64,000 nucleotides of DNA from Oligoflexales bacterium. Lineage in GTDB: Bacteria; Bdellovibrionota_B; Oligoflexia; Oligoflexales; RGVZ01. A program made the position numbers and the translations under genes. Within the stretch, counting starts at the first letter, position 1. Every line of letters starts with the position of its first letter. The notes under the pieces were generated by a model. It ran no database searches, had not been told where the DNA came from, and saw only the letters and a program-made list of their open reading frames with translations. This document shows, one piece after another, positions 1,091 through 63,935 of the stretch. The DNA lies in NCBI GenBank assembly GCA_947445775.1, contig CANFEB010000004.1:42802-106801 (forward strand), written 5' to 3'.

Positions 1091-2170
1091 GTGTCTTCTG
1101 CTTTAAAATCCGGTTTTTTATCGCAAAAACCATCAGATCAATCTGGGTTGTCTTTGCCCTTGGTCTTGGTGATCCTCATGGTGTCTTTGATCCCTGCCGG
1201 CATCTTCATGGAGCGGCTTAATCGAGACGTCTCCAAGCAGATTGAAGCCCGTGGCCAGCGTGATGCTGAAATGTATTTGCGGAGCCGTCTGGCCTGGATA
1301 ACCAAACTCATTGAAGAAGGCACTGTTGCGGTGAATTGTTCGAAGCAGTTTTGGTTTCCGACCACCAGCACCCATTCGGTATACGATAAAGCACGGCTAG
1401 AAATCGAATCTGGCAAAACATTCAGCCAGTATGAAAGCAGCCTGAGTCTGCGGCTGTGCATCTATCCAGCGACCAAGTCCCTACCGCAACTGGAGTCCCT
1501 TTTGAGCGGGGGTGATTCGCTGTCGCCATTGGCAAGTGAGTGCACAGCCATCGGAGGCCAGGCGGTGGAGGTAACCATCACCCCCATGGTCAGCGGGGCC
1601 ACTTGTAGCTCCGGAGAAAAATCATTCTCACTGAAGGCCGAGGCCACGGTACCGGTCGGCTTCAATAATCAAACAGGAACTTGGAAACAAAAGGCGGTCA
1701 CGCTGCAGCAGGCATTGCCCCAGGTGTGCATGCCGGCAAAGGGCACTTTGACGGTCAATTCGGGGAAGTGCCCGCCGTCCACGAGGCCGTTAGGCTGGGG
1801 GGTGAAGGATTTGACTCTGGATGGCTTCCTGGCCGGCTTCGCATCAGGAACCTGTGCCAATGGAATCTTTTCTGCCGAGTCTATAGATATAATTGGTAAT
1901 AATGGCAAAGCTTCTAGTGGGTCTGGTGGGACATGCACTTGGCCCTATTCAGTGTCAGCCAACGTCCAAGGTGACGTCGGAACCAGCAATCCGAATATTA
2001 TAGCGAGCTATTTTAGCGGCACTACTCCACTGGCCATCACAGCGCCAAATCTTACCCAGGTGTGGGGACCAGGAAATTATTCAGCGAGTGGCAACGCAAC
2101 GGCAGCGCCATTGGGCACAGAAACAATGAATATCAATGCGACTTACTCTGCTGCGTGCAAATGCCAATGA
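1091..2170 (+). CDS. PilX/GspK-like minor pilin-like protein
   Basis: N-terminus SGLSLPLVLVILMVSLIPAGIFMERLNRDVSKQ: hydrophobic pilin-like helix lacking Glu5; 5 bp downstream of the prepilin gene. Confidence 0.55.
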   Translation: MSSALKSGFLSQKPSDQSGLSLPLVLVILMVSLIPAGIFMERLNRDVSKQIEARGQRDAEMYLRSRLAWITKLIEEGTVAVNCSKQFWFPTTSTHSVYDKARLEIESGKTFSQYESSLSLRLCIYPATKSLPQLESLLSGGDSLSPLASECTAIGGQAVEVTITPMVSGATCSSGEKSFSLKAEATVPVGFNNQTGTWKQKAVTLQQALPQVCMPAKGTLTVNSGKCPPSTRPLGWGVKDLTLDGFLAGFASGTCANGIFSAESIDIIGNNGKASSGSGGTCTWPYSVSANVQGDVGTSNPNIIASYFSGTTPLAITAPNLTQVWGPGNYSASGNATAAPLGTETMNINATYSAACKCQ

Positions 2171-2388
2171 CGTAACGGTTGATGAAGGTTGCCCCATGGA
2201 CTGGGCCCCGATTGGCAAACCAAAGGTTGCGAAAACCAGTGAATTAGGCCGTTTTCTTTGCGCAAAACTCCTCTCTTCGCCAAAAATCGTGCTCGGAAAA
2301 TCCTTTAATCATCCTGCGACGTCCAATTGGGTTTACGGGTCATTTCAAAATTGTCCTGATGATCACGGGGCACCGAGTTAAAAGCCAA

Positions 2389-4134
2389 TCAAGAGGCGCA
2401 GTTTACATCAAGAGAATCCATGGCCTTGGCCAACAGTGGATGCTCGCCAACCACCTGGACCACTTCCATCAAAGCGCGAGCAGCAATGGGCTTCTCGGGG
2501 CATTCCAAAAGCGTCTGGGAAAACCTCGTCAAGGCTGATTCGTCCTCGGGCATCGAAATGGCAGATTTCGCCAACCAGTGAAGGGACTGTTCATAGAGGC
2601 GTAGGCGCCGGTAGACATTGCCAATCCCCATACATGTCAACGAGTCCTGAGGGTCCAATGCGAGTGCCCGCCGGTAAAGATCCAGCGCCTCTTGATGCGA
2701 CAAGACTGCGGCCGCCACATTTCCCAGCCCACGGTAGCAATTTGAGATGAGCCCTCGCGGCTCTTGGGAAGTTTCAGAGTTGGGCACGCTATGCATGCAA
2801 AGTAGGGCTGCGCGGTAGGCCTCGGTGGCTTCCTCATATTTTCCAGCAGTATAAAGCACCGCCCCCTTGCACAAATTGACGCGCGTTGCGAGTGCGCCCG
2901 GAGGTGCACGCAAAAGGAGGTCCTCCACCGATTGCAGCGTGTCCTCAAGCGTGGCGTCCTTGCCCCTTGTTTCAAGCGCAATGACTTGTTCCTCAAGTGC
3001 GCCGGCAGAGTCGGCGGCACCACAACGCTCGCCCGATTTTGTTATTGCCATCCCAACGGCATCGCGAAAATTCTGCTGGTCCAAAGACGAATGACCGCCA
3101 ATGGATGCGACGAAATTGTCGCGAATTTCATTTCGTGATTTATTGTCCGAGATCGCCTGCCGAAGCGCTTTCGCCATGGCAAGTCCTGCATATTCCGAAG
3201 CATTGGCGCAGGGAATCGGACTCCACCCACCAGACACCTGGGCTGTGGACAGCAAGGGCAAAGCGCCTGTCAGGCTTGCCATCGCCGCCAGCAAATACGG
3301 CTCGCTGGAACCTGAGACAGAAGAGCCAATTGCAATGTCACTGGCGTTCAAAAGATCTAAGAAAAATTCGGACGTATTTTGATGCAAAAATCTGACATGG
3401 CTGGCCAGCCGCCAATCGGAAATCATGTATTTCAATGGGTCCGTGCCCTCACGATTCCCGGAAAACAAAACTACGATGCGCTCAAATCCAGCGATCCCGG
3501 TTGTGCGCAAGGCATGCAAGGCTTTTACCAATTCTCCGGCGATACCTTTGTGGTCAAGTTCGTCTTGGAACAATATGACAAAGGCATCTTGAGTGATTCC
3601 GACATGATTGCGGAATTTGTCGCCTCGCCGTCCATCAACGCAAAAAATGGTGGGGTCCAATTGCATTGGCAAAATCTCGATCCGGTCACGCTCAAAGCCT
3701 TCAAATAACAAGGCCTCAACGGACCGATCTCCCGTTGCCCAGATGACCTGGCTACGGCTTAAAACATCGTGGCGTATTGCTCGGATATTTGAATAGTCAT
3801 CAAATGGTTGAGGAACAAGATCGAAAGAAATGCAGTGGCAGGGAATGTTATGTTTGAGCGCCGAGCGCAAAGCCTGAAAAGAGGAGAGGTTCTCTGCGCC
3901 CGCAACAATAATCAGATCCACACCGACAAGTTGTTCTTCAAGGCCAGCCATGTATCCGGCACGCTGAGGATCAGCCTCATACAAATTGAGCGCGAAACCA
4001 GCCATGCGCATTGAATCAGGTACACTCCCCTGAAAGGCGTGAAGCCGAACTTCATGCTGACCTGCAAACTGTGAAAACACATGCATCACGGTCAATTGCC
4101 CTGCGTTTCCTGCCACCAATGCTATTTTTCCCAT
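2389..4134 (-). CDS. glycosyltransferase-like protein with C-terminal TPR repeats
   Basis: N-terminus MGKIALVAGNAGQ, GT-B-like middle region, TPR-like C-terminus (AVLSHQEALDLYRRALALDPQDSLTCMGIGNVYRRL). ATG at 4134 preferred over the longer ORF start at 4194. Confidence 0.5.
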   Translation of the reverse strand: MGKIALVAGNAGQLTVMHVFSQFAGQHEVRLHAFQGSVPDSMRMAGFALNLYEADPQRAGYMAGLEEQLVGVDLIIVAGAENLSSFQALRSALKHNIPCHCISFDLVPQPFDDYSNIRAIRHDVLSRSQVIWATGDRSVEALLFEGFERDRIEILPMQLDPTIFCVDGRRGDKFRNHVGITQDAFVILFQDELDHKGIAGELVKALHALRTTGIAGFERIVVLFSGNREGTDPLKYMISDWRLASHVRFLHQNTSEFFLDLLNASDIAIGSSVSGSSEPYLLAAMASLTGALPLLSTAQVSGGWSPIPCANASEYAGLAMAKALRQAISDNKSRNEIRDNFVASIGGHSSLDQQNFRDAVGMAITKSGERCGAADSAGALEEQVIALETRGKDATLEDTLQSVEDLLLRAPPGALATRVNLCKGAVLYTAGKYEEATEAYRAALLCMHSVPNSETSQEPRGLISNCYRGLGNVAAAVLSHQEALDLYRRALALDPQDSLTCMGIGNVYRRLRLYEQSLHWLAKSAISMPEDESALTRFSQTLLECPEKPIAARALMEVVQVVGEHPLLAKAMDSLDVNCAS

Positions 4135-25488: not shown

Positions 25489-25515
25489 GGGGCCGCGACT
25501 TTCCGCGGAAAGTGC
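25489..25515 (+). repeat. left arm of a 27-bp inverted repeat around HNH gene 1 (contains ACTTTCCGCGGAAAGT)
   Basis: ggggccgcgACTTTCCGCGGAAAGTgc; reverse complement occurs at 26974-27000. Confidence 0.85.
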
Positions 25516-25780: not shown

Positions 25781-27010
25781 ATGGAAATACCAATAAATTT
25801 AGCAATGGATTTTTTAGGCGCAAAAAAACTTTCCGACACCGACTTAACCGCAGCCTTGTATAAAGCTATCGCCTCGGAACGCAGCCAGATCGCCGCCTCG
25901 ATTGCCTGCCTCATTGAGATCACAGCCCGTGATCTGCATACGCGTCAGGGCGCGTCCTCGCTTTTTGTCTATTTGACGCGTGACCTGAAATTGTCGGAAT
26001 CGTCAGCCTCAAAACGCTGCGCCGCAGTCAGGGCGATCCGTCAGTTTCCAGAAATATTGGATCTCGTGCAATCGAGTCGGCTGCACCTGTCAAATATTTC
26101 CCTGATCTCGCGCCACCTAACCCGCGAAAATTCTGGGAGGCTGATCGCCTGGGCACAAAACGAAACACATCGTGGACTTGAAAAAAAGTTGGCTTTGGAA
26201 TTTCCGCTGCCAGCACGGCGCGACACCATAAGGCCGGTCGTTTATTTAGTTTCTGGCGCGAAAGCGCCAGAAACTATCCCGAGCGTAGCGAGGGATCTCG
26301 ATGCGCTACCCATAGCGTTGTTTGGCGGCGACCAGTCCGACATAGATTCGGATGGGCCAGATTTTGTTTTTGAGCGTGGGCCGTCGTCGGGATCTGGATC
26401 AGATCGTGAGTCTGCCGACGTCGGGGCAGCTTTGGGGATTCGCCTGCAGATCACGCTTAATCCCGACGCCGCAGCGGACTTTGAATACCTGATGGCGGCG
26501 ATGCCAGGAAAATCCGCGTCCGAAATTTTGTCCCTTGCCCTTTGCGAGCTGCGCAAGCGTCGCGCATTGGTGGCGGGTAAATCTCCATCAGCGCAGCCGT
26601 CTCCCTCTAGGCTGCCATCTAAGCTACCATCTAAGCTGCCATCTAAGCTTCCGCCAGCCAGCGGCCGTCCTCCGAAGATCGCCACCAGCAAAACACCTAG
26701 GCCGTCCCTTAGCAGCAAGTATATTCCCGCGACCCTGCGCCGGGACGTGGCCCAACGGGATGGCCACCGCTGCACCTATGTGGCCGCCGCTGATTCCGGC
26801 CCCGACGGCGCGAGGCGCTGCGAAGCCATTCACCAACTAGTTTCTGGCGCTTTCGCGCCAGAAACTATCCCGAGCGTAGCGAGGGATCTCGATGCGCTAC
26901 CCATAGCGTTGTTTTGTCGCGCGCACAATAATTTGGCGGCGAAAGATCTCATGGGAAAAGAATTTATCGAAGCGCACTTTCCGCGGAAAGTCGCGGCCCC
27001 GTCACCTTGA
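25781..27010 (+). CDS. HNH-endonuclease-like family protein (DUF222-like N-terminus) carrying two in-frame palindromic elements; nuclease core disrupted
   Basis: Paralogous to the 61064-62204 locus. RRDVAQRDGHRCTYVAAADSGPDGARRCEAIHQL then the element VSGAFAPETIPSVARDLDALPIALF then CRAHNNLAAKDLMGKEFIEAHFPRKV. Confidence 0.75.
   Translation: MEIPINLAMDFLGAKKLSDTDLTAALYKAIASERSQIAASIACLIEITARDLHTRQGASSLFVYLTRDLKLSESSASKRCAAVRAIRQFPEILDLVQSSRLHLSNISLISRHLTRENSGRLIAWAQNETHRGLEKKLALEFPLPARRDTIRPVVYLVSGAKAPETIPSVARDLDALPIALFGGDQSDIDSDGPDFVFERGPSSGSGSDRESADVGAALGIRLQITLNPDAAADFEYLMAAMPGKSASEILSLALCELRKRRALVAGKSPSAQPSPSRLPSKLPSKLPSKLPPASGRPPKIATSKTPRPSLSSKYIPATLRRDVAQRDGHRCTYVAAADSGPDGARRCEAIHQLVSGAFAPETIPSVARDLDALPIALFCRAHNNLAAKDLMGKEFIEAHFPRKVAAPSP
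26247..26323 (+). repeat. 77-bp palindromic element, copy 1, in frame inside HNH gene 1
   Basis: TAGTTTCTGGCGC-GAAA-GCGCCAGAAACTA followed by TCCCGAGCGTAGCGAGGGATCTCGATGCGCTACCCATAGCGTTGTTT; translated VSGAKAPETIPSVARDLDALPIALF. Confidence 0.9.
26612..26647 (+). repeat. 12-nt tandem repeat (LPSK x3)
   Basis: ctgccatctaag ctaccatctaag ctgccatctaag. Confidence 0.9.
26838..26914 (+). repeat. 77-bp palindromic element, copy 2, in frame and replacing the HNH motif core
   Basis: Same as copy 1 except hairpin loop TTTC instead of GAAA; translated VSGAFAPETIPSVARDLDALPIALF. Confidence 0.9.
26974..27000 (-). repeat. right arm of the 27-bp inverted repeat around HNH gene 1
   Basis: gcACTTTCCGCGGAAAGTcgcggcccc; encodes AHFPRKVAAP at the C-terminus. 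Confidence 0.85.
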
Positions 27011-27125
27011 TGCCGCAGGCGAGGGACCATTTCCTTCATAGCGAAGGATTCCGGCAAAATCATTGAGCCGTTGCAAATGACGATTTTAAGGAGTTCCGCT
27101 GAACCTACGCCAATGAAAACCTAAC

Positions 27126-61063: not shown

Positions 61064-62204
61064 CTATTCTCCGAAAGGCTGGAGCGCAGCGAAGGGTCCC
61101 GTCTTCCCCCGCAGGACGGGCTTCTTCGGCTCCCCCTCAGAACGACGGGCCCGGACTTTCCGCGGAAAGTGCGCTTCGATAAATTCTTTTCCCATAAAAT
61201 CCTTCGCCGCCAAATTATTGTGCGCTCGACAAAGCAGTCGCAAATTTTCCAATGAATTTTGACCGCCAAACGCCCGCGGAGTTACATGGTCAAACTCAAG
61301 TTGGTGGATGGCGCCGCAGCGCCTGGTGCCGTCGGGCCCGGAATCAGCGGGGGCAACATAGGTACAGCGGTGGCCATCACGCTGAGCCACCTCCCGGCGC
61401 AGCGCAGCGGAAATATACCTTTTGGCCAAAAGTGACCCTGCGCTGTCGTCCTTCTCCGTAGGCTCAACGTCTTTATGGCCGACTCGGGCCACAGCCAAAA
61501 TTCTGGAGCCTGACTTCGTGGGCTTCGTGGGCTTCGAATTGACTGCTTTTCCGGCAGCCGTCTCACGACGTTTGCGAAGCTCGCAGATCGCAAGGGACAA
61601 AATATCTGAAGCAGATTTTCCTGGCATCGCCTGGCCCAAAAAATCAAGGGCCGCCGAGGCCTCGGGATTGAGCGTGACATGCACACGGACGGCCGATGGT
61701 ACCTGGGCCGTTGGTGGCTGGGCCGTTGGTGGCTGAGTAGAGCCAGTCTCCGATTCGAAAAAAAAGCCTGGCCTTGCCTCCCCCGCGCAGTCTTCACCGA
61801 CTTTTTCTTCTGCCTTGTCACGGGTGCCATCGTTTTTCTGAACATTTCCACAAAGTGTTCTTTGAGCGTCCCTCGACAAATAAACGGCCGGACGTATGAT
61901 GTCGCGCTTTGCAGACTGCGGAAATTCCATTGCCAATACTTTTTCTAGTCCGCGCTGGGTTTCTTTTTGTGCCAAGGCAATCAGCCGCGCAGCGCTTTGA
62001 TGCCGACGATTCTGACAGTTTCATAAAGCGCGTCAAATAGACAAAAAGTGACGAAGCGCCACGGCGAATATGCAGATCGCGGGCCGTTATCTCAATAAGG
62101 CAAGCGATAGAGGCAGCAACGTTGTTTCGTTCCGAAATTATCGCCAATTCAAGAGCTGCGGTTAAATCATTGTCGGAAAGTTGTTTTGCGGCTGAAATTT
62201 TCAT
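61064..62204 (-). pseudogene. second HNH-endonuclease-like paralog, frameshifted by an internal deletion relative to copy 1
   Basis: N-terminal half in ORF 61818-62204 (MKISAAKQLSDNDLTAALELAI...KRCAA) and C-terminal half in ORF 61064-61975 with intact EFDHVTPRAFGGQNSLENLRLLCRAHN. Junction cgctgcgc/ggctgattgcc lacks the equivalent of 26023-26138 (116 nt). Confidence 0.8.
61155..61170. repeat. ACTTTCCGCGGAAAGT palindrome, 3' end of HNH paralog 2
   Basis: Exact 16-bp palindrome encoding HFPRKV on the minus strand. Confidence 0.9.
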
Positions 62205-62505: not shown

Positions 62506-62520
62506 ACTTTCCGCGGAAAG
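62506..62520. repeat. ACTTTCCGCGGAAAG palindrome upstream of HNH paralog 2
   Basis: 15 of the 16 bp of the other copies. Confidence 0.85.
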
Positions 62521-63880: not shown

Positions 63881-63935
63881 TAGTTTCTGGCGCAAAAGCG
63901 CCAGAAACTATCCCGAGCGTAGCGAGGGATCTCGA
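63881..63935 (+). repeat. palindromic element copy 3, truncated (55 nt)
   Basis: TAGTTTCTGGCGC-AAAA-GCGCCAGAAACTATCCCGAGCGTAGCGAGGGATCTCGA, then diverges. Confidence 0.9.

Follow-up and report, generated by a model that had tools for sequence, protein, structure and literature searches.

The window analysed here is the whole stretch of 64,000 nucleotides, in which gene 1 is an HNH-family reading frame with two copies of a palindromic element inside it. The features of the window are given one per line, with the strand where one applies.

25498..25513, no strand: palindrome P2, ACTTTCCGCGGAAAGT, which bounds the HNH unit on the left
25781..27010, + strand: gene 1, HNH-family ORF of 409 aa with two element copies inside and its Pfam HNH match gone
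26247..26323, + strand: element copy 1, loop GAAA, from which similarity to fragments of an insertion sequence (IS) runs on to about 26349 with a 1-nt deletion
26838..26914, + strand: element copy 2, 77 bp, in place of 68 nt of the HNH core (EFDHV..LRLL); it is the outermost part of the A end, on the transposase side of the IS
26838..26867, no strand: terminal hairpin H1, a 30-bp palindrome with a 13-bp stem and loop TTTC
26868..26886, + strand: second inverted repeat H2, TCCCGAGCGTAGCGAGGGA, REP-like, on the inner side of the terminal inverted repeat (TIR)
26915..26978, + strand: restart of the native 3' part of gene 1 (CRAHNNLAAKD..), DNA identity to paralogs 90-97%
26976..26991, no strand: palindrome P2 again, bounding the HNH unit on the right
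61064..61975, - strand: paralogous HNH ORF, core intact, 5' end apparently frame-broken
61155..61170, no strand: P2 at the 3' end of the paralog unit, the other end being at 62506-62520 with its last base diverged
63881..63935 (C4:106682-106736), + strand: third TIR copy (H1-H2), which passes into reversed GIY-YIG C-terminal code (B-end) up to the contig end

The 5' anchor CACCAAC (searched as CACCAMC) and the 3' anchor TGTCGCGCGCAC enclose 77 nt in gene 1 and 68 nt in the four intact paralogs C58, C12, C30 and C2, with which the replaced stretch was compared by alignment and in which the native 68 nt reads TAGAGTTTGACCATGTGAACCC.... Because the same anchors hold stretches of these different lengths, the change in gene 1 is a substitution and not an insertion, with 68 nt out and 77 nt in, a net gain of 9 nt, and the frame kept. 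This confirmed the original prediction that a 77-bp element had taken the place of the HNH core with the reading frame continuing past it. Its estimate of about 66 missing nucleotides was close to the measured length, and element-free alleles, proposed as a check, are present with an intact core in the same four paralogs. The comparator it had chosen, the paralog at 61064-61975, does retain the core, but homology does not stop at its start (61975) and extends into ORF 61818-62204, which overlaps it, so that it appears frame-broken at the 5' end; C58 serves better.

A Pfam search matched the HNH domain in the window paralog at 3e-6 and nothing in the gene 1 protein, in which, among the residues that mark an HNH domain (DH, N and H), DH and N are replaced and CRAHN is retained. 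The element can be read openly in the frame used by gene 1 and is closed in one of the two other same-strand frames. We infer that nuclease activity has been lost, an outcome that had been predicted and is probable; the product, if gene 1 is expressed as is presumed, should be a dead nuclease of normal length. The gene 1 stretch named as a target for RT-PCR or proteomics is VSGAFAPETIPSVAR. The HNH linker also holds a 12-nt tandem repeat (PSKLPSKL.., window 26603-26650), with a copy number unlike that of paralog C58.

Copies 1 and 2 lie within the one 409-codon ORF and differ solely in the 30-bp hairpin, which is exactly reverse-complemented between them (GAAA versus TTTC loop); for the 55-bp part common to both, the chance expectation was 0 in 100 shuffles. 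H1 is maintained as a hairpin: across copies, 96.7% of cells were paired with 16 double-sided changes, a value reached in 0 of 500 shuffles, and the DNA fold gave a z of -6.9. An Rfam search of 26100-27100 returned no match up to E 1, and a reading as an integron attC-like site was dropped, no R-site consensus being discernible by eye.

The genome, a Bdellovibrionota-type MAG, is a draft of 2.48 Mb in 60 contigs, 90% complete, in which about 21 copies with a length of 39-77 bp or more were counted besides solo hairpins; the same hairpin is present in records named 'Bdellovibrio sp. ZAP7' MAG and 'Oligoflexales bacterium'. Beyond H1 and H2 the copies split into two types of continuation. Those of the B-type pass into reversed code for the C-terminal part of a GIY-YIG protein, which has 57% identity to the one in the relative G001. 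Those of the A-type, which include both gene 1 copies, continue through ..GATGCGCTACCCATAGCGTTGTTTGGTCGGCGACC..; on contig C37 this sequence follows a transposase gene, the order there being transposase C-terminus, tail, H2, H1. Transposase fragments were found close to H1-H2 copies in this genome and in G005. Copies within 150 bp of contig ends were enriched (5/21 versus 0.15 expected, P 4e-7), as is expected of longer repeats that the assembler did not resolve; this fits full-length IS copies left unassembled. No complete IS was found in the binned contigs of this 90% complete genome, only IS fragments, many at contig ends. Of the ~30 copies of this genome that were examined, the two in gene 1 are the only ones to sit well inside a long ORF with coding sequence on both sides, while one lies in the broken HNH gene C11, one at the N-terminus of an ORF, and the rest are mostly intergenic. 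The element shows no general preference for in-frame entry into genes.

The 77-bp element comes from the end of an IS in which each TIR consists of two stacked hairpins, H1 and H2; it was identified as a TIR tip because the same H1-H2 forms inverted repeats at both ends of transposase-bearing units, located as follows.

L186 (reverse complement 1912-4003) and L198 1353-2536: IS that are complete or almost so, each encoding a DUF772 transposase and a GIY-YIG protein and having hairpin-tipped TIRs of 75-88 bp

The original prediction had taken the element for an undescribed, stand-alone palindrome of the Rickettsia type. The evidence does not support this, as the two hairpins together make up the TIR of an IS that encodes a GIY-YIG protein and a DUF772 transposase, and the copy is a fragment of the transposase-side end. 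The complete IS of G001 is 2.09 kb long and has 75-bp TIRs (90.7%, E 1e-24) with H1-H2-GGATCTGGTGGAATGACATCGG at each end, enclosing a GIY-YIG ORF of 115 aa (PF01541 match) and a DUF772 transposase of 465 aa. In G021, a member of another family, the TIRs are 88 bp long (97.7%) and agree with these in H2 type but not in H1 sequence; between them lie a transposase gene and a GIY-YIG ORF. Bdellovibrio-like bacteria yielded at least two copies of this IS type that are complete or almost so, along with several fragments. The flanks of the L186 and L198 units have shared outer bases and no clear target site duplication (TSD); the order of the GIY-YIG and DUF772 genes differs between the two units. 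For the transposase, PF05598 (Pfam DUF772) matched at 1e-12 and was the sole model above its cut-off. A near full-length match to NF033578 IS5_1 was obtained at 5e-51, and NF033593 ISNCY_1 also matched, with all scores under the curated cut-off (IS5_1 174 bits versus 275, ISNCY_1 143 versus 325, IS1182 66 versus 270). The transposase thus appears to be IS5/ISNCY/IS1182-related, at scores below the curated cut-off of any of these named IS families. A nuclease-gene cassette with a 3' hairpin, considered on account of HNH or GIY-YIG C-termini beside H1-H2, was dropped, the tails being the two ends of one IS: the A-end adjoins the transposase, the B-end adjoins GIY-YIG, and the C1 HNH gene simply lies next to a fragment of an A-end.

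Copy 1 likewise displaced native sequence, in this case of the linker, and its similarity to IS fragments extends ~26 nt beyond the copy. It is one base shorter than the A-type copies, reading GGCGGCG where these read GGTCGGCG; direct reading of an A-type copy that lacks this one-base difference reaches a stop within about 20 codons. The one-base change in copy 1 together with the +9 at copy 2 hints at frame retention, but chance could also give two in-frame events. The ~26 nt in question (CGGCGACCAGTCCGACATAGATTC, window 26324-26349 and L017 near 1205) are common to the IS tail and two HNH genes at the same position, and are free of the divergence found in the adjoining gene sequence.

The HNH family of this genome comprises about 11 genes or fragments, gene 1 included. 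C58, the closest paralog, differs from gene 1 by a pS of 0.09 and a pN of 0.05 (143 codons outside the element); since its dS is about 0.10 and its core is intact, the core swap is recent. The dN/dS of gene 1 versus C58 was 0.53 on 26 differences, which are too few to tell whether selection persists. The palindrome ACTTTCCGCGGAAAGT, or a one-base variant, brackets an HNH gene at a distance of 1.35-1.76 kb in five copies of this genome and one of G008, a count that covers all six copies for which both ends were available, and at least 14/16 of the listed ACTTTCCGCGGAAAGT sites in this genome flank an HNH-family gene. The HNH unit is missing at the syntenic place in G008 and G010. With its palindromic ends the unit looks mobile, and ACTTTCCGCGGAAAGT could be the nuclease's own site; at gene 1 an IS fragment thus sits inside a second mobile-looking unit. 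At loci L145-L174 of G008 and G010, ACTTTCCGCGGAAAGT occurs as a solo palindrome between flanks that recur (..GATTCTCGA / TCCCATTGTCTGGC..), and these copies seem to belong to another repeat family. In the HNH gene C11, the same IS end is found in the opposite orientation at the same AACTAG as in gene 1, and gene sequence is replaced there too, apparently in an independent event at the same site.

L017 around 1440-1700: C11 reverse-orientation patch, both H1 arms changed together (TGG../..CCA)

The 5' junction of copy 2 falls within AACTAG, which is native in the gene and is also found at the outer edge of many IS copies, namely those flanked by AAC. At the 3' junction the IS reads TGTTTGGTCG and genes of the C12/C30 type read TGTTTTGTCG, with TGTTTxGTCG in common; the match is weaker in C58 (TATGTCG). 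As the closest paralog matches less well, the 3' microhomology depends on which allele was ancestral. The 3' end point inside the element is nearly identical in copies 1 and 2. These junctions are probably the result of entry of an IS end at AACTAG followed by a microhomology deletion, or of one template-switch patch. In the favoured and most likely route, either the whole IS or part of its transposase-side end would have entered the mobile HNH gene at the native AACTAG, and a deletion between the short matches (element TGTTTGGTCG and gene TGTTTTGTCG) would have removed the rest of the IS together with 68 nt of the HNH core. The alternative to this presumed order of events would be a one-step template-switch patch, possibly from copy 1. 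By either route gene 1 would then read through the IS tip with 9 nt gained and the frame kept. The favoured explanation is weakened by the lack of a complete IS in the binned contigs, by the poorer 3' match of C58, by the absence of a clear target duplication and by the nearly shared 3' end point of copies 1 and 2, which copying within the gene would also explain.

Several other origins were weighed. Copy 2 may have been templated on copy 1 within gene 1, by template switching at the hairpin with the loop thereby reversed, an origin regarded as unlikely. Both copies stop at about GCGTTGTTT, their hairpins are exact reverse complements, and the joint alteration of the H1 arms in C11 suggests arm-to-arm templating, but the source copy cannot be singled out, as many copies have the same 77 nt. 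Also improbable, and to a similar degree, is that the IS transposase made the exchange in a single structure-dependent step. Such a process has been proposed for IS1272 (IS1182 family); in it, a stem-loop end would oust an inverted repeat of the target with no target duplication and the rest of the IS would then be lost internally. The matches of the transposase to the IS5_1, ISNCY_1 and IS1182 models speak for it, as do the substitution of IS1272 for stem-loops without TSD (PMC5678879) and the replaced 68 nt of C58, which start TAGA and finish TCTA. However, every family model stayed under its cut-off, the TAGA/TCTA match spans only 4 bp and makes the target hardly a stem-loop, and a single IS end is present, with the 3' junction inside the IS and away from its tip.

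An assembly artefact joining two loci via the repeat would be in keeping with a 60-contig draft that has element copies at contig ends, yet is very improbable: the gene 1 locus lies mid-contig, both flanks match the same paralog type at exactly homologous positions, and the matches between the junctions and other loci are only about 4-10 nt long, presumably too short to cause a k-mer misjoin. A free-standing selfish palindrome, RPE/REP-like and specialised in in-frame insertion, for which two in-frame copies in one ORF and the resemblance of H2 to CGTC-tagged REPs could be adduced, is just as hard to sustain, given that in relatives these hairpins form the TIRs of a complete IS and that copies outside gene 1 are mostly intergenic. 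An origin from a GTAG REP/RAYT system, which likewise has dispersed hairpins from a mobile element, was rejected: PF01797 (IS200-like Y1 transposase) had 0 matches in this genome and the genus, and the hairpin was absent around the four found in G001/G003.

Compared with known systems, the source element resembles IS of the IS5, ISNCY and IS1182 type in its DUF772 transposase and two TIRs, and differs from them in the long 75-88-bp TIRs tipped by a self-complementary hairpin, the GIY-YIG ORF inside, the lack of a clear TSD and the sub-cut-off NCBIfam scores. The nearest described replacement process is the stem-loop-replacing transposition of IS1272 (PMC5678879), which resembles the present case in the IS-linked replacement of a target, here with no clear TSD, and in a palindrome-related IS end; in contrast to it, a single IS end is left, no clear stem-loop is seen in the target and the 3' boundary lies within the IS. 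In-frame palindromic insertions, two in one ORF included, have already been described (PMC3733652), and as in Rickettsia palindromic elements and intragenic REPs, short palindromic DNA is read in frame as 20-30 residues (PMC3733652). Unlike these, the element is the end of an IS and takes the place of the native core instead of interrupting it, and intragenic copies with coding sequence on both sides are confined to HNH genes; in-frame sites in several unrelated protein genes, as in the Rickettsia type, were not found among the ~30 copies of this genome. In the searched literature on GIY-YIG proteins with palindromes, IS or passenger genes there was no matching description.

In-frame palindromic inserts (PMC3733652) and IS-mediated replacement (PMC5678879) are known, and what is new, as far as the literature was searched, is the hairpin-tipped GIY-YIG/DUF772 IS and the in-frame replacement of a catalytic core by its tip. 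It is doubtful, though conceivable, that such an IS, with its own GIY-YIG nuclease, moves by repeatedly replacing a short target patch with its tip, so that protein segments are exchanged in frame; here this would have turned a nuclease into a full-length non-cutting protein, maybe a DNA-binding competitor of the active paralogs. The locus provides a concrete case of a dispersed palindromic repeat that can be traced to the IS that made it; for CGTC-type REPs, to which the H2 part is similar, Di Nocera et al. had identified no dedicated transposase. It is also a case in which an IS tip stands in for lost coding sequence, and since the gene family offers about ten copies, intact or decaying, for comparison, the route taken (insertion then deletion, template switch or stem-loop replacement) is testable.
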